Origin: Adhaeribacter aerolatus
GTDB taxonomy: Bacteria; Bacteroidota; Bacteroidia; Cytophagales; Hymenobacteraceae
Reading direction: 5' to 3'
Assembly: GCF_007991635.1 (NCBI RefSeq)
Contig: NZ_BJYS01000059.1
Span: 1-32,093, forward strand
Length of the DNA stretch: 32,093 bases
This document shows positions 13,428 through 31,807 of this stretch, piece by piece. The position numbers and the translations under genes were made by a program. The notes beneath the pieces are model-generated. The model worked only from the letters and a program-made list of their open reading frames with translations. It made no database searches and was not told the DNA's origin. Positions within the stretch are counted from its first letter, which is position 1; each line of letters opens with the position of its first letter.

Positions 13428-13506
13428 AATTGGAGTCAGTTATTTCTCAACTTTAAGGTTTATTTATTTAAGGTAGATTGATTTTTCTTAACGTGGCTTT
13501 ACTGCC

Positions 13507-13514
13507 TATCTTTG
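13507..13514 (+). promoter_or_regulatory. -7 element immediately before a GTG start
   Basis: TATCTTTG matches TAnnTTTG and ends only 4 nt before the GTG at 13519; TTTC sits 19 nt upstream as a weak -33. Transcription would begin at or next to the start codon, implying a leaderless or near-leaderless mRNA. Confidence 0.5.
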
Positions 13515-13518
13515 CCTC

Positions 13519-13842: not shown

Positions 13843-13927
13843 TTCTCCCAATAAAAGCCTTACCCAAACCCAGGCGGGTTAGAAGAATAAGGCCAATATT
13901 TTTTAACTTATTAGCGGATTAAGACCA

Positions 13928-16102: not shown

Positions 16103-16361
16103 AGTGAAAATTTTTAAATTCTTGTTTTAAGGCTGATTCAGGAACGATTGCGATTCAAATCCAGATTTTTAAAAAATAATAGAAAACCAATTTGGGGCTG
16201 ACTAATTTATAATAGTTGGTGAATTCATTTGAAAATTTAGAATAACAGCTTCTTACAATCGTGTCATATGCTTTTTTTTCTGTTTTACAGATAGTTAAAT
16301 TATTAGCAACCAACAGGTAACGCAATTTTAAAACATCTGCCAAATGAATATTTGCTTTTGG

Positions 16362-17420: not shown

Positions 17421-18938
17421 ATGGTAAAACACGATAATTCTTTTGAAGAATATCCGGACGTGGTTTTAATAGGAGCAGGCATTATGAGCGCCACCCTGGG
17501 TATGTTACTAAAACAACTGCAACCCGATATTACCATCGAGATTTTTGAGCGGTTAGATGTAGCGGCGGCCGAAAGCTCTGACGCCTGGAATAATGCTGGA
17601 ACAGGCCACTCAGCCTTTTGTGAATTAAATTATACCCCGGAAAAACCGGACGGAACCGTAGAAACTTCTAAAGCGGTAAAAATTGCTGAATCGTTCGAAG
17701 AATCGCGGCAATTCTGGGCTTATCTCATTCAACAGAACCTGATTAAATTACCCGAAACTTTTATTCGAAGCATTCCGCACATGAGTTTTGTTTGGGGCGA
17801 AGAGAATGTGCATTATTTGAAAAAACGCCACCAGGCTTTAACCCAATGCAACCTGTTTAAGGGAATGCAATATTCCGAAGACCCAGAGCAATTAAAGCAG
17901 TGGATACCTTTGATAATGGAGGGGCGCGACCGGTCGGAGAAGGTAGCAGCTACCCGCATGGACCTAGGCACAGATGTTAATTTTGGCGCACTTACCCGGT
18001 GTATGTTCAATCAGTTACAGGAGAATGACGGAGTACATTTACATTTCGGACAGGAAGTACGCAAACTGAAACAACTGGAGAATGGCTTGTGGCAGCTTAA
18101 AGTAAAAGAATTGGCTACCGGCGAAAAACGTAAGATAAAAGCCAAATTCGTGTTTATCGGGGCAGGCGGTGGCTCTTTGCCTTTGCTGCTGAAATCCGAC
18201 ATACCGGAAGGCAAAGGGTTTGGCGGTTTTCCGGTGAGCGGCCAATGGCTGGTTTGCACCAACCCCGAGGTCATTGAGCGGCACCAGGCCAAAGTTTATG
18301 GCAAAGCATCGGTAGGATCCCCACCCATGTCGGTGCCGCACCTGGATACGCGCATTATTAACGGCAAAAAAGCGCTGCTTTTCGGTCCTTATGCCGGGTT
18401 CTCTACTAAATTTCTGAAGAGCGGTTCCTTTATGGATTTACCTATGTCTATAAAAGCGAATAACCTGCGCCCCATGCTCATTGCGGGCATTAAAAATATA
18501 CCGCTTACCCGATACCTGATTAACGAAGTGCGGCAATCGGCCTCCGACCGATTGGCTTCGCTGCGGGCGTTCGTGCCCAAGGCGCGCATGGAAGACTGGA
18601 AATTGGAAGTGGCCGGCCAACGGGTGCAGGTCATTAAAAAGCACCCCACCGAAGGTGGTATTCTGGAGTTTGGCACCGAGGTGGTAAGTGCCGCGGACGG
18701 TTCTATTGCGGCCTTGTTGGGCGCTTCACCAGGCGCTTCTACGGCGGTTTCGATTATGCTCAACTTGCTACAACGTTGCTTTAAAGACCAGCTGCAATCC
18801 GTTGCCTGGCAAGCCAAATTAAAGGAAATGATTCCGTCTTATGGTAAGTCGCTGGCCAAAGACCCTCAGTTACTGGAAGAAGTAAGAACCATGACCAGCG
18901 AGGTGCTTGGTCTCACCGAAGTAGAAAAAGTAAAATAA
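17421..18938 (+). CDS. mqo: Malate:quinone oxidoreductase
   Basis: A 505-residue peripheral membrane FAD enzyme that oxidises malate to oxaloacetate and passes electrons to quinone, serving the TCA cycle and the respiratory chain. The FAD-binding motif [20 protein letters not shown] begins near residue 14. The Mqo signatures [20 protein letters not shown] (about 52-71), the [16 protein letters not shown] segment, [25 protein letters not shown] and the C-terminal [14 protein letters not shown] are all present. Length is normal for the family (about 490-510). It is monocistronic: a repeat element begins 4 nt after the stop and a strong terminator follows. Confidence 0.97.
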
Positions 18939-18942
18939 ATAA

Positions 18943-19029
18943 GACTTTCGCAAAATGGTTTCTTAAAATTGTAAATCCTCCCCCTTGCCCCCTCCGAAGG
19001 GGGACTTTCAATAATTTTGCGAAAGTCCT
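18943..19029. mobile_element. Palindromic MITE/REP-like element, copy 2
   Basis: Same architecture as copy 1: terminal inverted repeat GACTTTCGCAAAAT / ATTTTGCGAAAGTC (18943-18956 and 19014-19027) and the identical inner TCCCCCTT...AAGGGGGA hairpin. It differs from copy 1 at about five positions and lies 4 nt after the mqo stop codon, before the mqo terminator. Confidence 0.8.
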
Positions 19030-19052
19030 GATAAAGAAAATTAAAAATAAAG

Positions 19053-19104
19053 AAAAGCCCCGGAAAGAGAGTATGAATCTTTATCTCTTCCGGGGCTTTT
19101 TCTT
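19053..19104 (+). terminator. Strong intrinsic terminator of mqo
   Basis: AAGCCCCGGAAAGAGA pairs with TCTCTTCCGGGGCTT (one bulge) around a 13-nt loop, followed by TTTTCTT. It lies 115 nt after mqo because the repeat element sits in between. The mirrored A-run means it may also work from the minus strand. Confidence 0.85.
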
Positions 19105-19258
19105 ATATTACCCAAGCCGTTAACAGTAAAGCGATTTTTAAGTATAACGGCAGAATCCAAACCACTTTTATTGTTCAGCAGAATAGAATTAAAACTAAAT
19201 TTGGGGCTCTTGAAAATTTCAGGCGAAAGTTTTTATGTAAGCGGCAGGACTCTAATTT

Positions 19259-19540
19259 TTATTGCCACAAAGCCTGGGTGTTTAACTCAAACGCTACCAG
19301 CTTACTCCAAGCCACCCGCACGGCTTTATGTTGGCTCCTAATAGTTAAAATAAATATATCCGGGTCGCTAAAGTTTAGCAAAAAATCGCCATGCCGGCCT
19401 TCCATAAAAAAGGTGCCTTCAAAAATAAACCGGATGGGCATGCCTTTAGCCGGGGTATAAACTTCACACTCCTTTCCGGTGGTCTGCAAAAAAGGTTTTA
19501 AGAAAGGTAGTAATTTACTTTTCCAGGTATCTCTATCCAT
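19259..19540 (-). CDS. Hypothetical protein, 93 residues
   Basis: Not recognised. A soluble protein with alternating beta-type segments (PIRFIFEGTFFMEGRHGDFL; FSDPDIFILTIRSQHKAVRV) and an N-terminal helix (TWKSKLLPFLKPFLQTTG); the composition suggests a small alpha/beta domain. No signal peptide. It lies between the mqo terminator and the nine-gene operon, on the operon strand but 233 nt past its last stop, so it is probably a separate gene. Confidence 0.6.
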   Translation of the reverse strand: MDRDTWKSKLLPFLKPFLQTTGKECEVYTPAKGMPIRFIFEGTFFMEGRHGDFLLNFSDPDIFILTIRSQHKAVRVAWSKLVAFELNTQALWQ

Positions 19541-19773
19541 GTATAATCATTTATCCTCACCATCCTTAATAAAATCGCTTTTAGGATTATTTACGGATGA
19601 TAGTCGATGCCTTCATACGGAATTTTGAATAGAATGACACGGCCTGAAAGAGTTTTTTAAAGAAATGCAAAAAAAAAATGGATTATCAGAATATAAGTGC
19701 TCAAAACCAAATTGGGTTAGCTTTGGTTTAGAAATGAAAAATTCTACCAGTAAAAAAGTAACCCGGATTTGAA

Positions 19774-20802
19774 TTACACTTTTTCGACTACATTATCAGC
19801 CTGTTTAATCAGGCTATTCAGGTGCCCATCCAGGTTTACTTTTTTCGATTCTTCTTTTAAACCCTGTAATATTTCCCGACCAGATTCCTCCTGATTCAAA
19901 TTTTTGAGGTAGTTGGTAATCAGGTGCAAGGTCTGGTAATCTTTTTCCTGCCACTGGGGTTGCTGGTACAGCTTTTCTTCTTTTAGTATTTGCTGCAAAT
20001 GCGGCTCCAGGCCCTTTGTTTCAGCTTCGGTTCGGATGGAGCGAACGAGTTTATCATAAGTAACCTGATCTGGAATTTTATCTATCTGGTGGGTAATTAC
20101 TTTTAAAGTTTCCCGGTGCCGGCGGGCTTGCCGGAATAATAATAAAGCCACTATACCAATAAGCAAAGCTAACCCACCGGCCCCAAACGCCAGCCTTTTT
20201 ATATCCCGGATTCTTTCCTGAGCCTGCCGGTTTATTCTGGCAATATTGGGATTTACCTGATTCCGGATAACGCCTGTAGCAATTTTTTGTACCAGCGAAT
20301 CGAGCAAAGCCTGGGTGTTATTACCCAATAGTTCGTCCCGGAAAATAGCGGCCCGTTGAAGGCTTATGTCATTTAATAATTCGTCGCGGAGGGCGGCTAC
20401 AAATTGTTTGGTTTGGTCGCCGCGAATATTATCTAAAAAAGAAAGGCCTTTGGTGTTTAAATCGTTGGTGGTATTCTGAATTATTTTTTCCAGCCACAAC
20501 TGGGTATAGGCGCTTAGGAGGCTGTCTCTTACCCGGACTGTGGTGGCAAGTGCTTGGTGATCCAGTTGCCGGCCCAAGGAGTCTACCTGGGCCCGGATGC
20601 GGGACTGAATGCTGTCGTCTAAAACGGTGGCCATTACACTGCGGGCCACTGTGCCCGATAATGCCTTTGCGGTACTATCCAGGTAAGATTTGGGCAATTC
20701 TTTCTTTACCCCGGCCGTAAAACGCGCTCCTAGTTTTTCGGCGCAGCTGCTCCACAAAAAGACGAGTGGCAATAAAAGTAAGAGCAGGCTACGGCTTTTC
20801 AT
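19774..20802 (-). CDS. Lipoprotein with one internal membrane helix, unknown
   Basis: A 342-residue protein starting with a lipoprotein signal (LLLPLVFLWSSC, Cys20). The long periplasmic part (about 21-200) is predicted helical and Gln/Arg/Asp-rich (for example DSIQSRIRAQVDSLGRQL), a strong membrane helix follows at 205-223 (FGAGGLALLIGIVALLLF), and the C-terminal 120 residues are charged and helical. A lipid-anchored N-terminus plus an inner-membrane helix would place it across the envelope. No known family recognised. It is the last gene of the operon, 74 nt after the GMC oxidoreductase, and may organise the other membrane-associated products (inference). Confidence 0.75.
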   Translation of the reverse strand: MKSRSLLLLLLPLVFLWSSCAEKLGARFTAGVKKELPKSYLDSTAKALSGTVARSVMATVLDDSIQSRIRAQVDSLGRQLDHQALATTVRVRDSLLSAYTQLWLEKIIQNTTNDLNTKGLSFLDNIRGDQTKQFVAALRDELLNDISLQRAAIFRDELLGNNTQALLDSLVQKIATGVIRNQVNPNIARINRQAQERIRDIKRLAFGAGGLALLIGIVALLLFRQARRHRETLKVITHQIDKIPDQVTYDKLVRSIRTEAETKGLEPHLQQILKEEKLYQQPQWQEKDYQTLHLITNYLKNLNQEESGREILQGLKEESKKVNLDGHLNSLIKQADNVVEKV

Positions 20803-20876
20803 GGGTTTAGGAGGTTAATGACTGGGGCTAAAATGGGTACATCCGGAAACAGGTATAACTGGCTCCGGATGTATTC

Positions 20877-23222
20877 TTATAAATATTGTTGGTAAAGGGC
20901 CTTGCTGAAAAACAAACCAAAATCTTTGATGGCTTTGGCGCTTTCCAGGACATCAGCGGCATGTAACGCTTTAATGGTTGTAACTTGTTTTTTAAAATCT
21001 TTAGGTAATATTTTCAGAATGCCTTTGCCGGTTACCGGGCCAGAACTATCAGGGCCTTCGTAAACAGTAATAAAGAGGGTAGAGGTATCCGACCACACAT
21101 CAAAACCTTTATCGTCGGCTGCTTCTTTGTAACCGGTAAAGAAATATTCGTGGCCACCTACGGTATGCAGCTTCATCTGGTACAGCATTTTCAGTTTGCC
21201 CGGGTCTTGTTTGTCTTTTACAAACAAATTAAACTTTCCTTCGCTAATGGTTAAAGGTTTGGGCGATAAAGCAGGAGCGGTTACGGTTCCGGCCATTTTG
21301 GCTTCGTGCTGCTCGCTGTTGAGCATTTTTTCCAGGTCTTCCGAAACTATAGTGAGGGTAAAAGTAAACGGCGAATTTTTATTTTTTCCGGCATCATGGC
21401 CCTTCTGGAAGTCATCTTTTTCTTCGGTTGAGAAATAACCGGTCATGGTTTCGGTAAACTGCAGTCCAACGGGTTTAATCTTTTTTTCCTGCGGCGTAAC
21501 GGCCGGAAAATCATAAGAAATGGTCAAGCCATAATCCTGGGCAATAATTTCGCAGGATCTTTCGGCCAGCGCCGAAATGGTGAGTAAGGGGTTAACCCCT
21601 ACCGAACGCGGAATAATGGCACCATCGGTTACGTACAAACCTTGGTGCAGATCGGTACCGGTTTCGGAGGCATAAACCTGGCCAGCGTGGTTTACAACCC
21701 CCGTTTCGGCCTTGTCGCCCATCACGCAGCCGCCCAAAGGGTGCACCGTTACCAGATCAAAATTCATGGCCTTGCTCCACGAGGGGTTGGTGACGTAAGT
21801 GCCGCCCAAAGCTTTGGTGGCTTCTTTCAGTTTATCGTTTACTATTTTAAAAATGGGCTGTTTGCCTACCGCCGGCCAGTCTACCCGGATGCGGTCGTGG
21901 GCTAAACTAAGTTTACCTTTGCCATCGTCGTGCGACATAACCAGGTAGGTAAGGGTATTTTTTAAAGCGCCTTCGTAAGCCCCTAATATTTTGGTTTTGA
22001 TTTTCCGGAGCTTTTCCATGGCAAAATCTTTTAGGTTGGCATCCGTATCTTTGCCGAGCAATCTGGCCACGGTAATAAAAGTGCCGGGCAAAATGCCGGA
22101 TAAGGCACCCGGAATAACGCCTTCTTCAATTACGTAACCTTCTTCCAGGTTTTCTTTGCCGCGCATATCTATAATGCCGCCAATACACGGGCCAACGGCT
22201 TCAATTTCTTCGCCGGGTTTATGTTTGCCAAATCCTACGCCGTTTATCTCGTAATCGTTATTAAAACCAAATCCCAGCACGTCTCCGTTGCCGGTAAACC
22301 GGTGCCCCAGCAGGTTAGATAGCTGCAAACCATTCTGTTTAGACTTAAGCAATATTTCGGTGCTGCCCAAGCTGCCGGCCCCCAGGATAACCATGTTGGC
22401 CCGCACGAACAGGAAAGGCGCTTTAAATTTTTCGCGGCCGGCTTCCTGTAGCCGGTAATAAATTACCCATTGGTTATTGATTCTTTCCAGGTGCTGCACA
22501 GCTACTTCGGTAAATATTTCGGCGCCGTGGTTCCGGGCATCGGGCAGGTAGTTCATCAAGGTGGTATTTTTTGCCCCGTAATTACAGCCGGTTACGCAGT
22601 CGCCGCAGAGGTCGCATTTATGTTGTTCTACCCCCACGTGGTTTATTTTATTTTCAAAAGTTACGTTAATTGGGGCAAAGGTAAATGGCTCATTTAAGGC
22701 TTTGGCGGCCACTTTCATGGCTTCGGTTTTGGGTAATTTGGGGTAACCGTTTTTTCCTTCGGGGTAACGTTCGGGCTTCAGCATGGCGCGGGCCCGTTCT
22801 ACCCCGCGGTCAAAAGAAGCAAAATCTTCCCGTATTTCTAGCGGCCAGGCTTCATCTGCAAATACCCGCCGGTCGGGCTCGATGCACACGTTGGCATTTA
22901 CGAGCGAAGTGCCGCCTAAACCACAGCCAACGAAAACGTTAATGTCTTTGTTTACATGAAACTCGTACAGCGCCGTGGTAGAACCCAGATGCTTGTGTGG
23001 CATATTTACCTGCATTTCCTTCGTGGCCTGTACCTGGTCGTCGGGGTAGTCGCCGGGCTGGTATTCTTTGCCTCTTTCGAGTAAACCTACCTTCAGGCCG
23101 GCCCGCGCCAGGCGCGAAGCGGCAATACTGCCCCCGTAACCGGAGCCAATTACCACTACATCGTAAAAAGGCTTAATATCTGTTATGGGTAAGGACAGGT
23201 ACGCTTGGGGGTGCTTCTTCAT
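20877..23222 (-). CDS. GMC oxidoreductase (cholesterol-oxidase-like) with ferredoxin-type Cys motif and extra C-terminal module
   Basis: A 781-residue flavoprotein. The FAD dinucleotide motif GSGYGG is at 26-31; GCGLGGTSLVNANV at 99-112 is typical of the cholesterol-oxidase branch. Cys203-206-209-213 form CxxCxxCxxxC, which could hold a 4Fe-4S cluster. The catalytic His/Asn pair fits H494 (HPLGG) and N544 (GVNPLLTISA). Residues about 580-781 form an extra beta-rich module that resembles the end of the patatin-like protein in the same operon. No signal peptide; cytoplasmic or membrane-associated. It would oxidise a hydroxyl group of a lipid or sterol-like substrate. Its start overlaps the metallophosphoesterase end by 50 nt, implying translational coupling. 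Confidence 0.9.
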   Translation of the reverse strand: MKKHPQAYLSLPITDIKPFYDVVVIGSGYGGSIAASRLARAGLKVGLLERGKEYQPGDYPDDQVQATKEMQVNMPHKHLGSTTALYEFHVNKDINVFVGCGLGGTSLVNANVCIEPDRRVFADEAWPLEIREDFASFDRGVERARAMLKPERYPEGKNGYPKLPKTEAMKVAAKALNEPFTFAPINVTFENKINHVGVEQHKCDLCGDCVTGCNYGAKNTTLMNYLPDARNHGAEIFTEVAVQHLERINNQWVIYYRLQEAGREKFKAPFLFVRANMVILGAGSLGSTEILLKSKQNGLQLSNLLGHRFTGNGDVLGFGFNNDYEINGVGFGKHKPGEEIEAVGPCIGGIIDMRGKENLEEGYVIEEGVIPGALSGILPGTFITVARLLGKDTDANLKDFAMEKLRKIKTKILGAYEGALKNTLTYLVMSHDDGKGKLSLAHDRIRVDWPAVGKQPIFKIVNDKLKEATKALGGTYVTNPSWSKAMNFDLVTVHPLGGCVMGDKAETGVVNHAGQVYASETGTDLHQGLYVTDGAIIPRSVGVNPLLTISALAERSCEIIAQDYGLTISYDFPAVTPQEKKIKPVGLQFTETMTGYFSTEEKDDFQKGHDAGKNKNSPFTFTLTIVSEDLEKMLNSEQHEAKMAGTVTAPALSPKPLTISEGKFNLFVKDKQDPGKLKMLYQMKLHTVGGHEYFFTGYKEAADDKGFDVWSDTSTLFITVYEGPDSSGPVTGKGILKILPKDFKKQVTTIKALHAADVLESAKAIKDFGLFFSKALYQQYL

Positions 23223-24978
23223 GCTTTTTTGTTTTTATGGTGATAACCTGATCCATTAACTGGGTTTTTACTTCCCGGTTAGGGTGGTATATTTTGCCGT
23301 CTTTTTTCCAGCGGGCCGTTTTTTCTATGCCAATCGGGTAAATGATTAAAGCTTCCGGGGTAAGGTGCAGCCGCAGAAAATTTTTGTAACCGCTATATTT
23401 AAAAGAGGAAAATGCTTCGTTGTCGTGAATGCGAAACAGCAGGTTGCAAATGAATAAATAAATACCCATTACGATGCAGCCGGTGAGCCCACCCGCCACG
23501 AATAAATCAACCGTTAATACCCCTACCTTTCGCCACAAACTAATATTCATGAAAAAGGCCCAACTGGAACAAAGCCAAATAAGTAAAAAGCCATTCAGGA
23601 TGTGTACAAAGCCGTGGGCCAGGCCCAATAACCATAAAAAGGGCATTCGGCTGGATTTGGTATCGGTAAATTTGGTAACCCCAAATATGGCCAGGCCCAT
23701 GAAAAAGACCATAAACGGACTGAATATAACAATATTTAAAACGTAATTCGTGTAATCAACTAATCCGGTCAGGGTAACAGGAAATTGGTTAATCTTGGCA
23801 ACAAAAGCATGATCGGCTTCCTGCAGGAGCCAGGCAAACAATAGGTAAAAGAATCCCATAAAAGCAGCAAACTGTAAATTAAACCAGGGGAATAAAATAG
23901 TGCGCAGCGCCATCAGGCGAGACTGGGCTTTGGTGGGAAAAGTAGCCTGCAATTTAAATTTGCCTTCCCGCAAGTCCAGTTCATCTTTTAAGTTGTGGGT
24001 AGGATGCGAAAATGCCCCACCGCCACCGGCGGTTATTTTGTGGTAAGTTTTACCTTTTTCCGATAAAACATAATGGGCGTAGTGGTGTAAATCGCCGGCC
24101 AGGGAAATTACCAGTTCAAACCCATTCTGCACAATATAGCGCTGCTCAAAAAAACGGAGGTTTTCGTAGCTTTTATCTTTGGCGCGGGTGGTAAAAATCC
24201 AACTAGGTTCGGCGGTGCACAAAATAACTTTGTCGCCGGGCTTCATTTGTTTAGCCGCTATTTTATCAAAGTAATGTAACTGGGGGTAATCTATATCGGC
24301 TTCCAATTGTATGTCTATTCCCCAGAGCCACCAGTTGTGCGGCAGTTTAATAGCAAAGTAACTGCGGTGCTGCCGCGTTAGCCAATTGCCGATGGTACGG
24401 CCCTGGCAAAATATTTTAATAAAATTGGATAATCCGTCGTACCAGTCGTGGTTACCCGGAATGGCAAACAGCACGTGTTCTCTTTCGGGAACCTGATTGT
24501 TTTTAGCCTGTAGTTCGTGCTGGTGGCGGCACGCCGAATCGAACGGGCCCCGAAACCGGTTTTTATAATCGTCGCGGTTAGCCACCGGGTAAACTTCATC
24601 GCCGCCTAATATTAAAATATCGCCTTTGTAAGTTTGGTGCTCTTCTACCTTCAGTTCTGGTGCGGAGAGTAAATTGGCCATGGTAAAAGTGGTATGAAAC
24701 CCATCGCCGGTGTCGGACATGTAATCAATCCATACTTCGTTCAGGTGGCTGTAATCATAGGTATCGGGTTTAGCCAGACAAGCCTGGATTTCCCGCTTAT
24801 CAGAGTAAGAACCAAACACCGACGAAATGACGGTTTTTACGGCGGTACCCAATAACTGCCGGGCATCGTACCAGCCTACCATTTTTTTTGGGGTATAGTC
24901 AAAAGGGTCTTCCTGAAAAGCTCTTTTAACTTTCTCGGCTGCTTTTGCTCTTTTCTCTTGTGGCGTTGCCTCCTTCAT
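23173..24978 (-). CDS. Membrane-anchored metallophosphoesterase
   Basis: A 601-residue protein. The calcineurin-like domain (about 80-330) shows DTGDG at 89-93, ILGGDEVYP at 123-131, PGNHDW at 174-179 and AGDLHHYAHY at 294-303; the dimetal ligands are in place although the first motif is unusual. From about 365 to 520 there are four to five membrane helices (FAAFMGFFYLLFAWLL; IVIFSPFMVFFMGLAIF; AHGFVHILNGFLLIWLC; GGLTGCIVMGIYLFICNLLF), then a cytoplasmic tail. The combination suggests hydrolysis of a phosphate ester in or near the membrane. It lies 33 nt after the patatin gene and overlaps the GMC gene by 50 nt. Confidence 0.85.
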   Translation of the reverse strand: MKEATPQEKRAKAAEKVKRAFQEDPFDYTPKKMVGWYDARQLLGTAVKTVISSVFGSYSDKREIQACLAKPDTYDYSHLNEVWIDYMSDTGDGFHTTFTMANLLSAPELKVEEHQTYKGDILILGGDEVYPVANRDDYKNRFRGPFDSACRHQHELQAKNNQVPEREHVLFAIPGNHDWYDGLSNFIKIFCQGRTIGNWLTRQHRSYFAIKLPHNWWLWGIDIQLEADIDYPQLHYFDKIAAKQMKPGDKVILCTAEPSWIFTTRAKDKSYENLRFFEQRYIVQNGFELVISLAGDLHHYAHYVLSEKGKTYHKITAGGGGAFSHPTHNLKDELDLREGKFKLQATFPTKAQSRLMALRTILFPWFNLQFAAFMGFFYLLFAWLLQEADHAFVAKINQFPVTLTGLVDYTNYVLNIVIFSPFMVFFMGLAIFGVTKFTDTKSSRMPFLWLLGLAHGFVHILNGFLLIWLCSSWAFFMNISLWRKVGVLTVDLFVAGGLTGCIVMGIYLFICNLLFRIHDNEAFSSFKYSGYKNFLRLHLTPEALIIYPIGIEKTARWKKDGKIYHPNREVKTQLMDQVITIKTKKHEEAPPSVPVLTHNRY

Positions 24979-25011
24979 AAGTCAAAACCTTTATTAGTAA
25001 ATTATTAAATT

Positions 25012-26472
25012 TTAATTATCGCTGAAGAAGTAACTCTTCAGGGTTTTCTTCACCCGGCGGCGTTCAAACCACCCATCGGCATTGTACACACTCAGGCTTT
25101 TGCGGAGGTAAACCCAATCGGCTACCGAAATCTGGAATATCGAGGATTGGAGCGGCTGGCCGGCCGGACTGGTGCCGGCGTATAATTTAATCTCAGCTTT
25201 TTTACCCGCACCCGACAGGAACCGGCTATTAAAAACGGTGCTGCCGGTTATCACATAAGATTTGCCTTCCATTTCGGCCCGAAACTGGAACTGAACTATT
25301 TTATCGCCCCCGGCGGGATTAGGCTGCACCGTCAGTTCTCCTTTAAAGCCATAATAGATGCGGAGGCCCTCCGGAAAACTTAGGCTGGCGTTTAGCTGGT
25401 AAGGCTGCTCCGTCCGGACAAAATCCTGAATGTCGTGGATGGTGAGCGATACATGCAGCACCGCCAGTTGGTTAAATAATTTGCCGGATAGCTTGGCCCG
25501 ACAGGAAAAAGCAATGCCTTGTGATTTCATTTTGGTAGATAAATTAGGTTCGGCAATGGGGTCGGGGGGCAGGTTTAACAAATATTCTTTGGCATCGGCG
25601 TAGCCCATGTCAATTAAGGTGGTGGCGTTTACCCGGTTAAAATATAAATCCGGGTCCAGCGGCAGGGGATAGGCCGGTTTTATCAGGTGTACCCGGATGG
25701 CAGCTTTCTGGCCGTAAGGCGAATCGCCGCGGGTTATCCGCTGGTTCAGTTCGGTAATATAGTCTAATTCGGCGTACAAGGCTCCGTTGGCGCTCATTTC
25801 AATCATGTGCACATACTGGTTAAAAGTACCCCCTTTGTATTCGTGAATATTGCCGATAGCCCAAACCACCCAAATTTCTTCAGCCCCTCTTTTCACCGCT
25901 TCCAGGAGGTTCGCATCTTTTATCCAGACGGCATCGATGTACCAGTGGGCGTTTATTTTTTGCGCCGGCATAAACATGGGTAGGGAAACCCCGGCCAGCA
26001 GGTGGGGCAGGGTCAGAGATTCGTTGGGAATCGCCTCGTTTCTTTTCTCGGAATAATTGCACACGTTAAAGGTGCCGGCTAAGGCTTTTTCGGCGTTTAT
26101 GCTGGCTAAATCTACTCCTAAATGCGGCAGTACTTTCAGGCGAATACCATCGGCATCGCCAAAAGCAGCCAGCCGCAAAGGGTTCAGGTATTTCCGGAAA
26201 GGCAGATACGACACAAAGTGCTTGCTATTGAGTGTGCGCCAGTTGTGGCATATTTCGTCGGTGGTAAGGCCCGATAACAGCATGGCCAGCGTAAATATGC
26301 CGCCCGAAGTACCATCGGCATGGGTAAATTGCAACCCGTGTTCCTCCAGGGCTTTTAACACCCCCGCCTGGTACGACAACCGCATGCCACCGCCCGCCAG
26401 CACCAACGACCTTTTCGGTCCCTGGTAGCCCGCCGGAACCCGGAAGGGTAGTGGTTTAGTTAAATTTTCCAT
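25012..26472 (-). CDS. Patatin-like phospholipase with extra C-terminal module
   Basis: A 486-residue lipid acyl hydrolase. The oxyanion motif GGGMR is at 27-31, the nucleophile elbow GTSGG at 54-58 (Ser56), and the catalytic Asp lies in YIDAVW (Asp180), where most patatins have DGG or DGA. No signal peptide. Residues about 315-486 form a separate beta-rich domain resembling GMC oxidoreductase residues 583-755 (shared pattern of GxxF...T.TI...S...P......LSxPEG and later TG...YxG). The start overlaps the end of the upstream membrane-protein gene by 17 nt and the metallophosphoesterase follows after 33 nt, so the genes are tightly co-expressed. Likely role: releasing fatty acids from a membrane lipid or ester for the operon pathway (inference). 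Confidence 0.88.
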   Translation of the reverse strand: MENLTKPLPFRVPAGYQGPKRSLVLAGGGMRLSYQAGVLKALEEHGLQFTHADGTSGGIFTLAMLLSGLTTDEICHNWRTLNSKHFVSYLPFRKYLNPLRLAAFGDADGIRLKVLPHLGVDLASINAEKALAGTFNVCNYSEKRNEAIPNESLTLPHLLAGVSLPMFMPAQKINAHWYIDAVWIKDANLLEAVKRGAEEIWVVWAIGNIHEYKGGTFNQYVHMIEMSANGALYAELDYITELNQRITRGDSPYGQKAAIRVHLIKPAYPLPLDPDLYFNRVNATTLIDMGYADAKEYLLNLPPDPIAEPNLSTKMKSQGIAFSCRAKLSGKLFNQLAVLHVSLTIHDIQDFVRTEQPYQLNASLSFPEGLRIYYGFKGELTVQPNPAGGDKIVQFQFRAEMEGKSYVITGSTVFNSRFLSGAGKKAEIKLYAGTSPAGQPLQSSIFQISVADWVYLRKSLSVYNADGWFERRRVKKTLKSYFFSDN

Positions 26473-26878
26473 GCGGTTGCAGTTGGTTTCGGGTGTAGAA
26501 AAAAATAAGAATAACGCCTACTAATTCGTAAATCGCAAAAAAGTAAAACAGCCAGTTGGGTGGGCCATCTACCAGGTAAGAAACAACCCGGGCCACTACG
26601 CCTAAAAACATAACCCCTAAAAACAAGCGGTTATATTTTAATTGCGAAAACACCTCCCGGGTAAACAGAATGGCGAACATGCCAAACCCAAATTCTACCA
26701 GCCGTAAAAACCGGTACTGGGTTAACATACTGGCCGCGGTGGTCTGGTCTACACTGGTCAGGTCAAAGTCGAAAAGCATTTTCTGGTCTATTCTGGCCCC
26801 TATAAAAGCTCCCCACAATCCCGCTACTATTAGCAGCCCCACGTAGGTGTAGAAGAAAAAATAGGCCAGCAACCTCAT
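26456..26878 (-). CDS. Small polytopic membrane protein, 140 residues
   Basis: Not confidently recognised. Four probable helices: LAYFFFYTYVGLLIVAGLWG (4-23), a pair around LRLVEFGFGMFAILF and LFLGVMFLGVVARVVSYLV, and LFYFFAIYELVGVILIFFYT at the end. The layout resembles DUF4345-type proteins but this is uncertain. It shares a 4-nt ATGA overlap with the preceding gene and a 17-nt overlap with the patatin gene, a strong sign of one operon. Possibly a membrane partner of the enzymes (inference). Confidence 0.75.
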   Translation of the reverse strand: MRLLAYFFFYTYVGLLIVAGLWGAFIGARIDQKMLFDFDLTSVDQTTAASMLTQYRFLRLVEFGFGMFAILFTREVFSQLKYNRLFLGVMFLGVVARVVSYLVDGPPNWLFYFFAIYELVGVILIFFYTRNQLQPHGKFN

Positions 26879-27300
26879 GTTTTTATTTTAAGTTTTTGCC
26901 AATAGGTAAAAATTAAAATCCCGGATACTAAATCGAAGAAAGCCACACCCAAAGCCAGACCAGAAAATATTCCGTTCAAAACGCCTAAGCCCACCGCCGC
27001 TGCTGCTCCGAGTTTTTGCAGACCGCACCAGAAAACCGGTTCCGGCCCAACCGGAGCCTGCCTTAAAGTCTGCCAGAGCAAACCTCCGAACAAAACCATA
27101 AACATTCCGATGATGGCAAAAAAATGGGCGCTGGTTTTATCTGTACTGGCCCCGATGAAGCTTAATACCAACGGCGCGGCCACCACTTGCACGGCACCCG
27201 TTAAAACCGTAACCGCTGAAATAAAAACGAGCAGCTTAGGCAGCAACCGGTGCGTTTCGCTGGCTGCTAATGGTTTGGTTTTTATATCTATAGCTTTCAA
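26875..27300 (-). CDS. Small polytopic membrane protein, 141 residues
   Basis: Not confidently recognised. After a polar start (about 1-20) come four probable helices: LLVFISAVTVLTGAVQVVAA, AHFFAIIGMFMVLFGGLLWQ, LQKLGAAAAVGLGVLNGIFS and FFDLVSGILIFTYW. Size and helix spacing resemble the next gene, so the two may be distant paralogs. The only upstream ATG gives a 65-nt overlap with the DUF1772-like gene; a later alternative start cannot be excluded. The stop overlaps the next start by 4 nt. Confidence 0.72.
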   Translation of the reverse strand: MKAIDIKTKPLAASETHRLLPKLLVFISAVTVLTGAVQVVAAPLVLSFIGASTDKTSAHFFAIIGMFMVLFGGLLWQTLRQAPVGPEPVFWCGLQKLGAAAAVGLGVLNGIFSGLALGVAFFDLVSGILIFTYWQKLKIKT

Positions 27301-27772
27301 GGTATTTTATATAAAAGTAAGACATCATGCATAACCATTGTACCGTCCAGAGGCTTACCCTAATTACATTCAGCCGCATCCATTTGTCCAGCACTTCGCG
27401 CAATACAGCCGCATCTTTTATGCCGGCCGCCATTTGCTCGTTGTAAGGAATAATATAAATAATGGTAAGGGCCGTAGCCAGAATAACCCCTAAAAGCACC
27501 CCAATCGGGAACCAGCGCTTGTAACTGCGCCACTCCGCAATTGTCATAATCAAGGCGGTGGCCAGCATTACCATGGTCATGTAGGTAAAAAACTTAGTAG
27601 CCGCCGTTACCTGGGGCACAAACTGCATGTAATAATTATCGGGTGTGAGTTCGGGGGCAATCGGGAAAGAAAAAAGTAAAAGCGACCAACCCGTGCCCAG
27701 GTACATAGAGGTGCATAAAAACAACAGGGAATGATTTAGCCCTAATAAAGTTCTTTTGGTTTCGCCGCGCAT
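27236..27772 (-). CDS. DUF1772-like membrane protein
   Basis: A 178-residue protein with four probable helices: HSLLFLCTSMYLGTGWSLLLF, FFTYMTMVMLATALIMTIAE, WFPIGVLLGVILATALTIIYII and, after a soluble loop, VSLWTVQWLCMMSYFYIKYL. The loop segment LREVLDKWMRLNVIRVSLW matches the conserved xxWxRxNxxR pattern of DUF1772, a family that includes anthrone oxygenases, so an oxidative role is possible. It lies 17 nt after the acetoacetate-decarboxylase-family gene. The assignment is moderate, from pattern memory only. Confidence 0.65.
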   Translation of the reverse strand: MRGETKRTLLGLNHSLLFLCTSMYLGTGWSLLLFSFPIAPELTPDNYYMQFVPQVTAATKFFTYMTMVMLATALIMTIAEWRSYKRWFPIGVLLGVILATALTIIYIIPYNEQMAAGIKDAAVLREVLDKWMRLNVIRVSLWTVQWLCMMSYFYIKYLESYRYKNQTISSQRNAPVAA

Positions 27773-27789
27773 GTTTTTATATTTTTAAA

Positions 27790-28686
27790 TTAAACCCCCG
27801 CTGTTTCGGGTTGTTTAGCTGTTTGGCGGTTCGGTTTTTCTAACCATTCTTCGCCGTAGCCCAGGTGATACACACTTTCCAGGCCTTCTCCGGTTTTCTC
27901 CGGCAACTCGGGGTAGCTTAAAAACCAGCTCTCAAAATAATCATCCAAAATGCCGGTAGTTTTGGGCAAGTAGGCCGTAAATATGGGGTCCTGTTCTATT
28001 TCCAGATATTTGAGTTGAGCCGCATTGGGGTGATTGCCCAGGGTAATTTTAGCCGCTCCTTTTTTAAACAAGGTTAGCCCGGCTTTGCCTTTAAAATATA
28101 TATACGATTTCATGAGCATGCCCCGGAAGCGGCAATAATTAGCCGCGCCCATGTTCATCGGCATAAAGATGCGGGCGGGCCGGGTTATATCTAGCCGCAT
28201 TACCATCTGGCCGTCCAGGTCGTACTGAGCGCTGATTACTTCGGAGCCTTCTACAAAATCCAGATTGGCCTGGTGCTTGGGCATACCCCAGATGCCTTTC
28301 CCACCTTTCACCGAAATTTCGGTGCTTACCGGTAAATCCAAAATATACTGCCCGGTACCGTAGGCTTTCATGAGCATGGCCGGTAATAATTTAGGGGCCG
28401 GTTTGTCGCCGTGCGTACATGCCAGGGCAATGCTGTATTCTATGTATTTACCAATATCGGTAATGCGGTAATCTACCACCGTTACAATAAAAACTGCTTT
28501 GCCATTCCAGAGCCGGACTGGGTGCACTTCGTTGCCGGGTAACAGGGTACGGGCTTTCTCGTAATTGGCCGGAAAAGCGGCCATGATAACGGCGGCGTTG
28601 TCGGAGTTAATGGGTAAATGGTAAGGAATGCCATCTACCCGGGCGTACCTGCCTGCCTGTTTCAGAAGTCTTTTAGGAATAGCCAT
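27790..28686 (-). CDS. Acetoacetate decarboxylase-family protein
   Basis: A 298-residue member of the ADC superfamily. The central KGIWGMPKHQANLDF (about 130-144) contains Lys137 where the family places its Schiff-base lysine (PK motif); YIEYSIALAC (81-90) and the DLPVSTEISVKGGKG strand are also typical, as is VYHLGYGEEW near the end. Members outside true acetoacetate decarboxylases act as hydratases, aldolases or cyclases on keto substrates, so the reaction is open. It lies 19 nt after the alpha/beta hydrolase gene and 17 nt before the DUF1772-like gene. Its presence suggests that a keto product, perhaps from the GMC oxidase, is processed further (inference). Confidence 0.87.
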   Translation of the reverse strand: MAIPKRLLKQAGRYARVDGIPYHLPINSDNAAVIMAAFPANYEKARTLLPGNEVHPVRLWNGKAVFIVTVVDYRITDIGKYIEYSIALACTHGDKPAPKLLPAMLMKAYGTGQYILDLPVSTEISVKGGKGIWGMPKHQANLDFVEGSEVISAQYDLDGQMVMRLDITRPARIFMPMNMGAANYCRFRGMLMKSYIYFKGKAGLTLFKKGAAKITLGNHPNAAQLKYLEIEQDPIFTAYLPKTTGILDDYFESWFLSYPELPEKTGEGLESVYHLGYGEEWLEKPNRQTAKQPETAGV

Positions 28687-28705
28687 AGGGTTGTACTTTA
28701 ATTTA

Positions 28706-29761
28706 TTAGTTTACACGGAGTTCCTGCAACATCAAAGGGAAAACATCTTTATAGGCGTTTTTGCCTATAAAAACATCCAGGTGGCTGTAATCGGGTAATA
28801 CCCGCAAAGCGTGGTAATTCTGCCGGAGATTATCAAAATATTTAAAACTCTGGACTTGGCTGTCGGGCAAAAAGCACAAATTTTTACCACCGGCAAAAAA
28901 AGAAATCCGGGCTTCAGTGGCCGGAGCGGCGGCTACAAACGAGTCGGGCAGTTCTTTCTTTTTCTCAATCGACATTAAATGCCCTGCTTTTACCGACCTT
29001 GCTATTTGCTTGTAAAAAGTCATAGGCACGGCGGCAAACTGGCTTTTAATCCATTCGTGGGTTTCGTCATTTAAATTTTCGTGGCGCCACAAGGCGGGGA
29101 ACCCGCTGCCGTACGTAAAGCTAACCTGTTTGCAAACGCTGTTATTACACTCGTGGTGGGTGAGCTGTACCAGCGTATTTACCATTTTAGCCGTCAGGGA
29201 AGGGGCTTTTATTCCCCACTGTGGGTTTAAATAATCGGTTAGCTGCTTTACCATGGGTACCATCACCGAAAGTTTAAACCTCGAAAAATCGGGTACCACG
29301 GGGTGCAGCGAAACGGCATTGGAAACAATATTGGTAACCTGGGGCACCAGCCCGGCTACTACCGACATCATAAAACTGGTAGAGCCCTGGCAATGAATAA
29401 TGGCTTTTATTTTAGGAGAGCCGGTAATTTCCACCACCTTTTTTACGGCTGCCGGATGGTCGTACAAAGCCGCTTGATCCAATGTCCATTTATTAGGGGC
29501 AAAATCAATGCTGGCGCGCCAGTTTTCCAGCCAAACATCGTACCCTTCTTCCAACAAAAATTCTACAATATTTTTATTTACCGGGGCTAAAAAAATACTG
29601 GCGCTAACCCCGGCCCCGTGTACCAGCAATACCGGATCTTTCGTATTTTTTGTTGAACCGCTTACATGAATTAGGTTGCATGGGAAACCATCTGCTGCTT
29701 CGAAAGGAAATATTTCGAACTGCAGATTTTTGCCGGCATATTTTTCGGTAACAGGCTTCAT
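28706..29761 (-). CDS. Alpha/beta hydrolase of the GMC-oxidase-associated type, Cys at the nucleophile position
   Basis: A 351-residue alpha/beta-hydrolase-fold protein with no signal peptide. The oxyanion region is LLVHGAGVSASIF (45-57), the DVWLENWRAS strand follows, and the nucleophile elbow reads IIHCQGSTSF (121-130). By alignment with PHA-synthase-type elbows (GxCxG) Cys124 occupies the nucleophile place; Ser127 is an alternative. The catalytic His is probably H327 in LPDYSHLDVF, and GKNAYKDVFP follows it, as I recall for hydrolases encoded with or fused to GMC oxidases. It is the first gene of the nine-gene operon. Only a weak promoter-like sequence is visible upstream (TTTG, then CCTTTTG on the minus strand near 29783). 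Confidence 0.85.
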   Translation of the reverse strand: MKPVTEKYAGKNLQFEIFPFEAADGFPCNLIHVSGSTKNTKDPVLLVHGAGVSASIFLAPVNKNIVEFLLEEGYDVWLENWRASIDFAPNKWTLDQAALYDHPAAVKKVVEITGSPKIKAIIHCQGSTSFMMSVVAGLVPQVTNIVSNAVSLHPVVPDFSRFKLSVMVPMVKQLTDYLNPQWGIKAPSLTAKMVNTLVQLTHHECNNSVCKQVSFTYGSGFPALWRHENLNDETHEWIKSQFAAVPMTFYKQIARSVKAGHLMSIEKKKELPDSFVAAAPATEARISFFAGGKNLCFLPDSQVQSFKYFDNLRQNYHALRVLPDYSHLDVFIGKNAYKDVFPLMLQELRVN

Positions 29762-30223
29762 AAGGCAACGATTTTACATATTCAAAAGGCGTATAGGAGT
29801 TAATAGCAAATTATCAGGAAGGTCAACAATAGAATACTATAATAATATTATATTAAGGAAAGATAATGAATTTAATAAAAAATATCAAGAAAATATTGGA
29901 ATAATTTAGGATAAAGATTTTAGGAATTTTAGCTAATCCTGGTTCTTGTTCTTGCCGGAATACACCTGGAATAAAGATATGGCGATTAGATAAACTTTAT
30001 AAATTGGGAGAAATTGATAATCAGTTATTTAACTTTATAAAGATGCTCTTGAAGTACACCTTAATCAGGTGGTATCAGAAAGAATATTTAAAATAAAATA
30101 GCAACGAAATGAAACCGCTTTGGTGGCAGGTTAATTTCGTTGCTATTTTCAGACGTTAATTTATTTTATTTTAATAATTGGCTTAGCGCCAAAGTTTTCA
30201 CTTAATATTATTTCAGTTAGATC
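29762..30223. other. Intergenic region holding the operon start and a terminator
   Basis: 462 bp, AT-rich. It should contain the promoter of the nine-gene operon, but I find only weak matches. A plus-strand frame ending near 30094 lacks a start codon and is not called. The terminator hairpin at 30095-30149 is listed separately. Confidence 0.4.
30095..30149 (-). terminator. Long-stem terminator after the minus-strand Rnk-like gene
   Basis: A perfect 16-bp inverted repeat (AAAATAGCAACGAAAT / ATTTCGTTGCTATTTT) with a 23-nt loop. On the minus strand the stem ends in ATTTTATTTT, 75 nt after the stop of the gene at 30224-30634. Confidence 0.75.
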
Positions 30224-30634
30224 TTACAAATGAAAATCACCGGCCGCTTCGGGCTGGTACAAAATATCCTCGATCCGGATTTGGACTTTGCCGCTGGGAA
30301 CTTCCCAGTCAATTACATCGCCTTTCCGGTAGCCCAATAAGGCCGTAGCAATAGGCGCAAAAATAGATATTTTATTTTTTTTAATGTCCGCTTCTTCCGG
30401 GTACACTATTTCCATCTCCAGCTCCTTGTCGGTTTGCAGGTATTTGAGTTTAATTATCGAATGCATGGTAACTACATCCATCGGAATTTGGGTAGGTTCT
30501 ACTACCTGGGCCCGGCTTAACTCATTGGTAAGTTTGTTAATCTCTTTCGTAAAATTAACAGAACTTTGCCGGAAATGGTGCATGCGCTCTCTCAGGCGCA
30601 GCGCGTCTTTTTCGCTGATTATTAAGTTATTCAT
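30224..30634 (-). CDS. Rnk/GreA-C-domain protein, paralog 1
   Basis: A 136-residue protein with a short N-terminal helical segment (about 1-45) and a C-terminal GreA/GreB-type FKBP-like domain: VVTMHSIIKLKYLQTD at about 54-69, EIVYPEEADIKKNKISIFAP at about 75-94, and GYRKGDVIDWEVPSGKVQIRI. At this length it matches Rnk-type RNA-polymerase-binding regulators rather than full GreA (about 158). The frame extends to 30736, but the ATG at 30634 starts the homologous region and gives exactly the same length as the second paralog. Own terminator downstream. Confidence 0.85.
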   Translation of the reverse strand: MNNLIISEKDALRLRERMHHFRQSSVNFTKEINKLTNELSRAQVVEPTQIPMDVVTMHSIIKLKYLQTDKELEMEIVYPEEADIKKNKISIFAPIATALLGYRKGDVIDWEVPSGKVQIRIEDILYQPEAAGDFHL

Positions 30635-31396
30635 AACTTTTTTTAAGGTTGTAAATGAATTAAGGTTTAAGGTAGGTAGTAGTATTAAGTCCAGTTTTCT
30701 GCCCTCTAACCCACCCGAGAAAAATAAAGATAGCAAAAATGCTCTTTTACCTGAACGTAAGAGTTATTTTAAATTATATCTACTACTCTAAAAATAATAT
30801 AAGGGTTGCTACAGCCATAAAGAAGAAGATGGGGCTTGATCTGATTGGTTGGTTTTTACAAAAAATTTAGTTATCTTAGCCTATAACGCTTCTGCGGAAA
30901 GCAGCCAGCATAAAGGCTAAACCTGCTTTTTGGACAAATATATGGTTATATAATATTCAAACGCAGACACCGTTTTATTAACAAAGATCGAATTTATTTA
31001 TGCCAAATTACCCAACAATAGCTTACCTGGTAACAGAACCGTTGCGCGGTTTAGTACCGGCATCGCATCATGCTACGCAAAGCGATGCGGTGGATGGCTA
31101 CTGTTTGTATTTTTTTTCTGTTCCCAAAGTTTTTTTCAAATAAGCCGGTTCATTCCGGCAAAATCACGCTAATAGCCACGCAACTGGTGGAACAAAATAG
31201 TCATTTTCTACCGGTTTCAAAAGCGAATAAGCAAGTGGTTCTATAATTATTTCGATTCAGCGTACTTTTTTTCCGGCACTTCCGGAGTTTAACATTTACC
31301 ATAACTTATTTAATCTAAATCCCGGCAGAAAAAGGTCTATGTCTGTACCTGCCGGTAAATTTATTTTTAATTAAACATCATTTAAATCTCATCGCC
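30635..31396. other. Long intergenic region between divergent Rnk-like paralogs
   Basis: 762 bp. It should contain both promoters, but none matches the consensus well. Near 30900-30933 an AAGCAG/CTGCTT stem followed by T residues is terminator-like on the plus strand. A possible broken small gene (31000-31230) is listed separately. Confidence 0.4.
31000..31230 (+). pseudogene. Possible small frameshifted gene
   Basis: ATG at 31000 opens 47 codons (MPNYPTIAYLVTEPLRGLV and onward) to a stop at 31141. In the +1 frame, sharing the T-rich stretch near 31111-31117, a second open segment continues (KITLIATQLVEQNSHFLPVS and onward) to a stop near 31230. Joined at the T-run they would give a protein of about 77 residues. 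Not recognised; it may be chance. Confidence 0.22.
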
Positions 31397-31807
31397 ATGA
31401 ATACCATTTATTTAACAGAAGAAGATTACCGGCAACTGGTAAACCTTATTCAGACCCAGCCCAAAAAGGAGGACCTTTTACCGGCTTACATCCGGTTAAG
31501 GACAGAACTGAAGCGGGCCAAGCGGGTGCCCTCGGAGGCTATTCCGCCGGAAGTAGTTACCATGAACTCGCGGGTGCGGGTTTTAGAAAAGAAGAGCGGT
31601 AGTGAAATGGAAATTTCGGTGGTTTTCCCGCACGAAGCAGATTTTAATGCCGGTAAAATCTCGGTATTATCACCCATTGGGATGGCTATATTGGGGAGCC
31701 GCGAAGGTGAGGAAGTCGTTTGGACGGCGCCTTATTGCAAATTTATTTACCGGATTCTGGAAGTGAAATACCAGCCGGAAGCCGCTGCCAGTTTAGATTT
31801 CCATTAA
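31397..31807 (+). CDS. Rnk/GreA-C-domain protein, paralog 2
   Basis: A 136-residue homologue of the protein encoded at 30224-30634, in the opposite orientation. Shared blocks are the PxEVVTMNSRVRV segment (paralog 1 has MDVVTMHSIIKL), the SVVFPHEADFNAGKISVLSP block (paralog 1 EIVYPEEADIKKNKISIFAP) and the closing YQPEAAASLDFH (paralog 1 YQPEAAGDFHL). The N-terminal helices differ. The expected role is binding RNA polymerase near its secondary channel, as Rnk/Gre proteins do; which paralog does what is unknown. A good terminator follows. Confidence 0.87.
   Translation: MNTIYLTEEDYRQLVNLIQTQPKKEDLLPAYIRLRTELKRAKRVPSEAIPPEVVTMNSRVRVLEKKSGSEMEISVVFPHEADFNAGKISVLSPIGMAILGSREGEEVVWTAPYCKFIYRILEVKYQPEAAASLDFH

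Follow-up and report, generated by a model that had tools for sequence, protein, structure and literature searches.

A conserved eight-gene cassette in Adhaeribacter aerolatus with a possible role in lipid-alcohol oxidation

Gene content of the locus

We analysed a stretch of 32,093 nucleotides from Adhaeribacter aerolatus (contig NZ_BJYS01000059.1 of assembly GCF_007991635.1; hereafter the window), in which an earlier inspection of the letters alone, without database searches (the sequence-only reading), had proposed a nine-gene operon for membrane-associated lipid or sterol oxidation. All nine open reading frames (ORFs) were present on the minus strand between 19774 and 29761, transcribed from 29761 toward 19774 in the order ABH, ADC, AOX, TM4, DUF4345, PAT, MPE, GMC, LIPO. 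Our results support the view that eight of them, ABH-ADC-AOX-TM4-DUF4345-PAT-MPE-GMC, behave as one conserved system. The genes and features of the locus are listed below.

28706..29761, minus strand: ABH, alpha/beta hydrolase resembling gastric and lysosomal acid lipases (Pfam PF00561)
27790..28686, minus strand: ADC, acetoacetate-decarboxylase-family protein with the motif WGMPK(137)H (PF06314)
27236..27772, minus strand: AOX, small membrane protein, Anthrone_oxy (former DUF1772) (PF08592; alignment of 19 sequences)
26875..27300, minus strand: TM4, membrane protein of 141 amino acids (aa) with about four hydrophobic helices (hydropathy, tblastn)
26456..26878, minus strand: DUF4345, small membrane protein (PF14248, alignment)
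25012..26472, minus strand: PAT, patatin-like lipase with Ser56/Asp180 (PF01734)
23173..24978, minus strand: MPE, phosphoesterase of the calcineurin-like type whose C-terminal part has about four membrane helices (PF00149, hydropathy)
20877..23222, minus strand: GMC, cholesterol-oxidase-like flavoenzyme (residues 1-570) with a Cys loop and His494/Asn544 (Pfam, alignments, model)
20880..21491, minus strand: eight-stranded barrel domain at the C-terminus of GMC, residues 578-781 (AlphaFold2, profiles)
19774..20802, minus strand: LIPO, lipoprotein with a second membrane helix at about residues 201-227, a lineage-specific addition (hydropathy, tblastn)
30095..30149, no strand assigned: upstream hairpin, resembling a terminator on either strand (folding against shuffles)
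19053..19100, no strand assigned: downstream hairpin, located between mqo and an ORF of 93 aa and resembling a terminator on either strand (folding against shuffles)

The recomputed spacings along the nine genes (19, 17, -65, -4, -17, 33, -50 and 74 nt) agreed with the figures reported before, and the description of the locus as nine tightly packed minus-strand genes was borne out. The 65-nt overlap of AOX and TM4 may be overstated, and the true start of TM4 may be a TTG that lies in frame at its codon 19: of 35 loci with a tblastn match to TM4, 22 match from residue 14 or beyond and 4 from residue 1. As for the two flanking hairpins, none of 200 shuffles folded as well on either strand (z -5.3 to -6.6), and A/T tracts accompany both; the hairpins were spotted by eye, and a generic promoter and terminator scan of 18900-30400 did not list them and found no excess of sites.

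Seven of the nine gene names given in the sequence-only reading were backed by Pfam, with scores against cut-offs (bits) of 26.5/25.8 for Abhydrolase_1, 55.5/29.8 for ADC, 28.2/27.3 for Anthrone_oxy, 48.2/26.5 for DUF4345, 72.9/27.7 for Patatin and 28.3/21.5 for Metallophos, and scores of 54.8 and 49 bits for GMC_oxred_N and GMC_oxred_C. The other two, TM4 and the lipoprotein, had no Pfam family at E 0.001. By a simple hydropathy count, AOX, TM4 and DUF4345 have three or four helices apiece; MPE has four in its C-terminal half, and LIPO has two. Since no export signal was seen by eye in the soluble enzymes of the operon, these may be cytoplasmic and act at the inner face of the membrane.

Conservation of the gene set

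Named genomes, one per species, were scanned with the GMC alignment, the best 80 of 376 GMC relatives were analysed, and the presence of each family in these 80 loci (numbered with L) was called by tblastn at E 1e-4. GMC was found in 80 loci, ABH in 62, MPE in 48, ADC in 40, PAT in 39, TM4 in 35, AOX in 34, DUF4345 in 21 and LIPO in 2. At least seven of the eight families without LIPO were present in 32 of the 80 loci, and the order and strand of the window were kept in 31 (19 with DUF4345, 12 without). The remaining locus of the 32 belongs to a Chloroflexota metagenome-assembled genome (MAG), in which the families are rearranged and MPE is distant. The sequence-only reading had itself named a lack of joint conservation of these neighbours in other genomes as the result that would speak against a single system; for eight of the nine genes, they are conserved together. 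The lipoprotein, which that reading had counted in, falls outside the conserved set, as its two loci are both from Adhaeribacter; a weak homologue lies near a GMC of 45% identity in another genome (G306). In line with the membrane association proposed earlier, the conserved set includes membrane proteins.

Other arrangements were found as well. GMC and the hydrolase are fused in a single ORF in 15 of the 80 loci, spread over several phyla (eight Acidobacteriota, three Pseudomonadota, and one each of Bacillota, Desulfobacterota, Gemmatimonadota and Ignavibacteria, phyla being taken from the record titles), and three Nitrospirota MAGs carry GMC-ABH-ADC-PAT. In 14 Cyclobacteriaceae-type loci (L080, L084, L091 and 11 others, for example L106 at 12765-15511), proteins of about 708, 207 and 576 aa stand beside the cassette, and these conserved extra neighbours probably reflect shared ancestry of one chromosomal region.

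A second sample comprised 395 genomes of the window's phylum (numbered with G), from which 20 regions were then compared with the window proteins; the two surveys probably overlap at one genome (G122, probably the same as L073, Flavihumibacter soli). Some GMC was matched at E 1e-10 in 39 of the 395. Full-length matches including the C-terminus were confined to the window's genome, G122, G266 and G092, and strong matches without the C-terminus came from G179, G306 and G283. All eight genes were present in G122, in the same order as in the window, and in G266, where they are rearranged; G179 had six (ABH, ADC, AOX, TM4, PAT and a GMC of 38% identity), G092 had MPE and a GMC-hydrolase fusion on a contig of only 9.4 kb, and G283 had a GMC with a weak hydrolase match. 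The cassette was found in none of 14 other regions picked from weaker GMC hits, where lone matches were seen in L048 (TM4) and L050 (a piece of patatin), so the cassette neighbours do not accompany GMC proteins in general. The ADC profile matched 4 of the 395 genomes (the window's, G122, G179 and G266), in all four inside the cassette; with the window's genome left out, the overlap between the ADC genomes and the five genomes holding the barrel has a hypergeometric chance of 4e-7. Both this confinement of ADC to the cassette and the shared order and strand in 31 of 80 loci go beyond chance.

The cassette is patchily distributed. Eight other genomes of the window's family had no barrel match, and the three of these that were searched for ADC had none. 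Within the window's taxonomic order the barrel was found in 10 of 118 genomes, and one genome of this order (G1010) carries MPE-GMC-ABH-ADC-AOX-TM4-PAT(barrel). Among 299 Pseudomonadota genomes (centre genome included), the barrel was found in four and the ADC family in one of these four (G752; hypergeometric 0.013 for the overlap). In G752 a GMC-ABH fusion lies about 0.7 Mb from a separate ABH-ADC-PAT(barrel) group; the modules of the cassette co-occur even when unlinked. Of 247 genomes in an Acidobacterial sample (centre included), 7 had a GMC belonging to this group (E 1e-80), full-length in four. ABH is 63-65% identical to that of the window in Nitrospirota versus 53-57% in Cyclobacterium, a member of the window's own phylum. 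Because protein identities do not follow taxonomy, the cassette has probably been transferred between lineages as a whole unit, a reading drawn from identities rather than a tree, and with MAG contamination possible for single cases.

The GMC flavoenzyme

The closest solved proteins to the GMC profile were cholesterol oxidases (E 5e-31). An AlphaFold2 model of GMC (mean pLDDT 88.8) likewise had cholesterol oxidase as its best Foldseek match (E 6.6e-28, target TM 0.78), directly followed by two direct-electron-transfer FAD dehydrogenases, membrane fructose dehydrogenase and the FAD-glucose dehydrogenase of B. cepacia. GMC resembles class I cholesterol oxidase (Streptomyces/Brevibacterium) in fold, FAD motif and the positions of the active-site His and Asn, and H494 and N544 were present in 82 of 82 aligned GMCs. 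The fold alignment has only about 22% identity, however, and the score of 155.2 bits against the NCBIfam cholesterol oxidase equivalog NF058674 is below the cut-off of 850. What we take to be the isomerase base of cholesterol oxidase, of the Glu361 type, lies outside the block aligned with GMC. Unlike cholesterol oxidase, GMC has an extra C-terminal barrel, no export signal by eye, and a loop of four cysteines, C203-x2-C206-x2-C209-x3-C213, at a position where the aligned oxidase has no Cys. C203, C209 and C213 were found in 82 of 82 aligned GMCs and C206 in 81 (81 distinct sequences), and all four recur in a seven-member alignment with the more distant proteins of G306, G283 and G179.

In the FAD-glucose dehydrogenase of B. 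cepacia, the ligands of the 3Fe-4S cluster are Cys212, Cys218 and Cys222 (PMC6719666). The same C-x5-C-x3-C spacing occurs in GMC, at a place in the chain similar to that in the B. cepacia enzyme and in Gluconobacter fructose dehydrogenase, the comparison being one of spacing and position rather than a residue-by-residue alignment. Because the Cys loop is spaced like these cluster ligands and the aligned cholesterol oxidase has no Cys there, GMC is probably an Fe-S dehydrogenase and not an O2-using oxidase, and the name alcohol oxidase given to it earlier is probably wrong. It differs from the direct-electron-transfer dehydrogenases in the extra C206 and in the barrel, and a different substrate pocket is expected.

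In five Acidobacteria/Ignavibacteria loci (L096, L115, L120, L121 and L131), the GMC-hydrolase fusion is followed by a protein of 620-631 aa with two CxxCH motifs and, by eye, hydrophobic N-terminal segments (13436-15298 in L096). The L096 protein, the one member scanned, has a RoxA-like cytochrome domain (Pfam, 55.2 bits), and the di-heme protein matches PDB 4b2n, presumably RoxA itself, over 59 residues only. This cytochrome is a plausible, though not proven, electron acceptor for GMC.

The hydrolases, ADC and the small membrane proteins

The ABH profile matched gastric and lysosomal acid lipases at E 3e-17 (gastric) to 1.8e-13 (lysosomal acid lipase/cholesteryl ester hydrolase), with the HG loop, nucleophile elbow and His region aligned (E 3e-17). 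At the elbow, the lipase 'GHSQG' was aligned with 'HCQG' (HCxGS), which places C124 where these lipases have their nucleophilic Ser. C124 was found in 63 of 63 members, fused forms included, and H123, C124, G126, H327 and D329 were invariant in 30 of 30. ABH also weakly matched PHA synthase (E 6.5e-5; NCBIfam 22.7 bits, far below the cut-off). The oxyanion glycines G27-G29 of PAT, its GxSxG serine S56 and its catalytic D180 were kept in at least 93% of 40 patatins. Of the two ester hydrolases described in the sequence-only reading, one, ABH, has a Cys in place of the nucleophilic Ser, which leaves transfer or thioester chemistry open.

The metal ligands of MPE (D89, D127, N176, H177, D178, D296 and H298) were conserved in 18 of 18 sequences, and its profile found nothing among PDB sequences at E 0.1. 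In L096 (64.2 bits), in L102 and L107 (22.3 and 21.9 bits, just above the cut-off) and in G306 (32.8 bits), the metallophosphoesterase found near GMC has no match to the window's MPE, and Azospirillum oryzae has one near GMC by annotation, not compared with MPE. Because such enzymes recur near GMC, the function of the cassette may include cleaving a phosphoester, whichever family supplies the enzyme.

In ADC, K137 of the GMPKH motif was present in 42 of 42 sequences, and E53, E83 and K137 were invariant in 15 of 15. K137 is presumably the Schiff-base lysine, equivalent to Lys115 of C. acetobutylicum ADC. The ADC profile had no match among PDB sequences at E 0.01. The lipid-type enzyme set described earlier is real, with its catalytic residues kept.

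A functional precedent for ADC is the cla system of Lactiplantibacillus plantarum (CLA-HY, CLA-DH, CLA-DC, CLA-ER). There too, the keto product of a hydroxylipid dehydrogenase is handled by an enzyme of the ADC family: CLA-DC isomerises an enone made via the hydroxy-fatty-acid dehydrogenase (PMC11719350). Given this precedent within the ADC family, isomerisation appears as likely as decarboxylation for the last step. The dehydrogenase of that system is short-chain and NAD-dependent, not a GMC (PMC9241672, PMC11719350), and a patatin, phosphoesterase, acid-lipase-like or membrane protein is not named in the available text (PMC11719350).

The AOX family is poorly understood. A relative of the Anthrone_oxy/DUF1772 type, ChrI, is a partner in a peptide-modifying oxidation (PMC11002830), a precedent that does not settle the role of AOX.

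The barrel domain

No Pfam family matched residues 578-781 of GMC better than chance (the lowest E value, 0.014, came from 1 of 52 members). The AlphaFold2 model (pLDDT 92.6) shows eight long strands and a C-terminal helix, for which Foldseek found nothing in the PDB at E 0.001, the weak top matches including lipocalin-type proteins and designed barrels. Nothing was found at E 0.001 in a viral fold library, nor beyond a marginal designed protein when the barrel profile was compared with PDB sequences, and a relation to the ADC fold was not supported by profile comparison.

The same barrel ends the patatins of L033, L037, L058 and L067. Profile comparison of the GMC and patatin domains gave E 7.2e-50 at 33% identity, and the GMC-derived profile matched 4 of 40 patatins of the loci (E 2e-50 to 3e-48). 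Ten genomes searched for the barrel gave 11 matches, ten of them on ORFs as long as GMC or the fusion (777-1315 aa), and the eleventh on a 517-aa ORF at the patatin's place in a Nitrospirota genome (G399). The barrel is thus an unclassified domain that is terminal in GMC and, in relatives of several phyla, in patatin. A domain that links two enzymes in this way speaks for a substrate or a docking site that they have in common.

Other features of the window

At 16362-17126 (minus strand), near the operon, lies a gene for an MPAB/Lcp-type rubber-oxygenase-like protein (53.4 bits); it was rejected as part of the conserved set, with no tblastn match in the 80 loci. Two proteins with a GreA/GreB C-terminal domain are encoded beside the operon, at 30224-30736 (minus strand, 81.8 bits) and 31397-31807 (plus strand, 79.6 bits). 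Further away, 222-1608 (plus strand) holds a nuclease-inhibitor pair: an Endonuclease_NS protein (DNA/RNA non-specific endonuclease, 168 bits), whose N-terminus looks lipoprotein-like by eye, and, 46 nt downstream of its gene, a NuiA-type nuclease inhibitor (121.8 bits). At 11694-16102 an arsenic-type group comprises an ArsR-family regulator, a GNAT acetyltransferase and a methyltransferase on the minus strand and a divergent TonB receptor; we take the methyltransferase to be arsenite methyltransferase-like.

Discussion

For the cassette we could show directly that its genes are conserved together, which families they belong to, that catalytic residues are kept, that a domain is shared and that genes are fused; Fe-S occupancy, electron route, substrate, transfer as a unit and the order of the reactions, which the sequence-only reading had also given as inference, are what we infer. 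In our judgement it is an even call that the eight genes form one membrane-associated lipid-alcohol oxidation cassette acting on an esterified hydroxylipid. PAT, the Cys-type ABH or both would release or transfer the acyl-linked hydroxylipid, and MPE would strip a phosphate head group. GMC, as a dehydrogenase, would pass a hydride from the hydroxyl group to FAD, and an Fe-S cluster in the Cys loop would hand the electrons on to an acceptor in the membrane. In the window's lineage this route may run via the small membrane proteins to quinone, and in Acidobacteria/Ignavibacteria it may lead to the adjacent di-heme RoxA-like cytochrome. ADC would then act on the ketone through its presumed Schiff-base lysine, as a decarboxylase or an enone isomerase, and the barrel might bind the hydrophobic substrate or serve as a docking point between the enzymes. 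We more tentatively suggest a hitherto undescribed pathway that spread over several phyla as a complete cassette. In it, a new barrel domain that binds lipid would join an Fe-S cholesterol-oxidase-like GMC, a Cys-nucleophile lipase and a patatin, which would turn an abundant hydroxylipid of membrane or environmental origin into a ketone and send the electrons to the respiratory chain. A limited check of open-licence PMC literature (titles and the start of abstracts) found no description of the gene set or the fusion, in agreement with the earlier remark that no characterised system has the full set.

Several observations weigh against such a cassette. The direct-electron-transfer dehydrogenases come with hitchhiker subunit and cytochrome genes, and neither was recognised among the nine window proteins, in which Pfam found no hitchhiker gamma subunit, cytochrome c or other heme-protein family; a membrane electron acceptor could not be shown for the Bacteroidota form. 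TM4 and DUF4345 had by eye looked homologous to the membrane part of the Acidobacterial cytochrome, which hhalign did not support (E 0.23 and 0.55), and profile comparisons found no homology of AOX, TM4 and DUF4345 to one another. The window's own PAT had no barrel match by profile, and direct BLASTP of the C-terminal parts of the window's GMC and PAT found nothing: the C-terminal part of PAT (about 320-486) is placed where some relatives have the barrel and is not recognisable as one, and its relative in L054 was weak against the patatin-derived profile (0.0024). The best-80 survey is biased to close relatives, several of them mutually near, such as eight Cyclobacterium loci. GMC stood without the other seven families in 9 of the 80 loci (six of the nine with less than 7 kb upstream), and six Bacteroidota loci have a reduced set of ABH-MPE-GMC with or without ADC. 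In Chitinophagaceae-type loci (L056 at 12348-16439, L055, L062, L063 and L064), another conserved context was seen, in which an unclassified protein of 425 aa comes after GMC, then a DyP-type peroxidase, then a protein of 329 aa that has no Pfam match and is catalase-like by eye (Pfam run on L056); L056 has an additional small membrane protein. In G306, GMC occurs with a VAO-type-looking oxidase (by eye), a metallophosphoesterase and the LIPO homologue. GMC thus serves more than one gene context. Because of these other settings and the reduced sets, the eight-gene cassette may be seen as the fullest form of a modular system, whose substrate may differ between forms.

Other explanations were weighed against the oxidation cassette. 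Lipid synthesis, in which the Cys-type ABH is an acyltransferase with PHA-synthase-like chemistry and GMC and ADC furnish a membrane or storage lipid with its ketone or enone group, appears unlikely. It would account for the Cys at the nucleophile elbow, the weak PHA synthase match and the probably intracellular location of enzymes lacking an export signal by eye, but patatin and phosphoesterase suggest breakdown, the nearest solved relatives of ABH are lipases, and no other typical synthesis family was found among the recurrent neighbours, judged mostly by eye and not all scanned.

The use of environmental sterols or steryl esters, with ABH as steryl esterase, GMC as sterol dehydrogenase and ADC as enone isomerase, seems to us improbable. 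The nearness of GMC to cholesterol oxidase in fold and profile and of ABH to lysosomal acid lipase/cholesteryl ester hydrolase (E 1.8e-13) would suit it. Against this stand the low identity of GMC to cholesterol oxidase (about 22% in the fold alignment), its 155 bits against the NCBIfam cut-off of 850, the lack of ring-degradation genes recognised by eye among recurrent neighbours, and a phosphoesterase left without a role. An endogenous hopanoid or sterol as substrate is also unlikely: eight genomes with an ADC cassette (G000, G122, G266, G179, G399, G402, G403 and G404) were searched with PF13243 for squalene-hopene cyclase, six had no match, and the other two were weak (G000, 21.3 bits, or 27.5 with neighbours; G402, 43.5 bits). 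The same search of six other genomes gave clear cyclases in G395-G398 (best 301-451 bits), 74.6 bits in G092 and 24.9 in G400. The sterol part of the sequence-only reading comes down to a family resemblance to cholesterol oxidase and lysosomal acid lipase.

Equally hard to favour is the oxidation of polyisoprenoids (polyprenols, undecaprenyl phosphate or rubber-like compounds), in which MPE would dephosphorylate a polyprenyl phosphate and GMC oxidise the alcohol. A phosphoesterase and an alcohol dehydrogenase suit polyprenyl phosphate, the RoxA-like di-heme cytochrome (one member scanned) adjoins the GMC-ABH fusion in five loci, and the MPAB/Lcp rubber-oxygenase-like gene lies 2.6 kb beyond the operon of the window. 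Yet that gene had no match in the 80 loci at E 1e-4, the RoxA match spans just 59 residues, and patatin and ADC are unaccounted for. A selfish or fitness-neutral cluster whose genes act separately is very improbable: its sub-modules can stand apart (GMC alone or fused; ABH-ADC-PAT separate in G752), but the same order recurs in 31 of 80 loci, ADC co-occurs exclusively with the system in both samples searched, and the enzymes are tied by a gene fusion and a shared domain. An anti-phage defence system was rejected, as PADLOC models matched none of the nine proteins at E 0.001.

In summary, the eight-gene set occurs in one order in about 30 sampled Bacteroidota and rearranged in a Chloroflexota MAG; in Acidobacteriota, Nitrospirota, Pseudomonadota and others its forms are reduced or fused. 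A cassette that recurs in this way must have a useful function, one overlooked by current annotation. It holds a domain without a Pfam family, a nucleophile-switched lipase-like family and an Fe-S-looking branch of cholesterol-oxidase-like enzymes. If its substrate were found, many orphan annotations would be explained, and a new oxygen-independent enzyme for hydrophobic alcohols might come to light.

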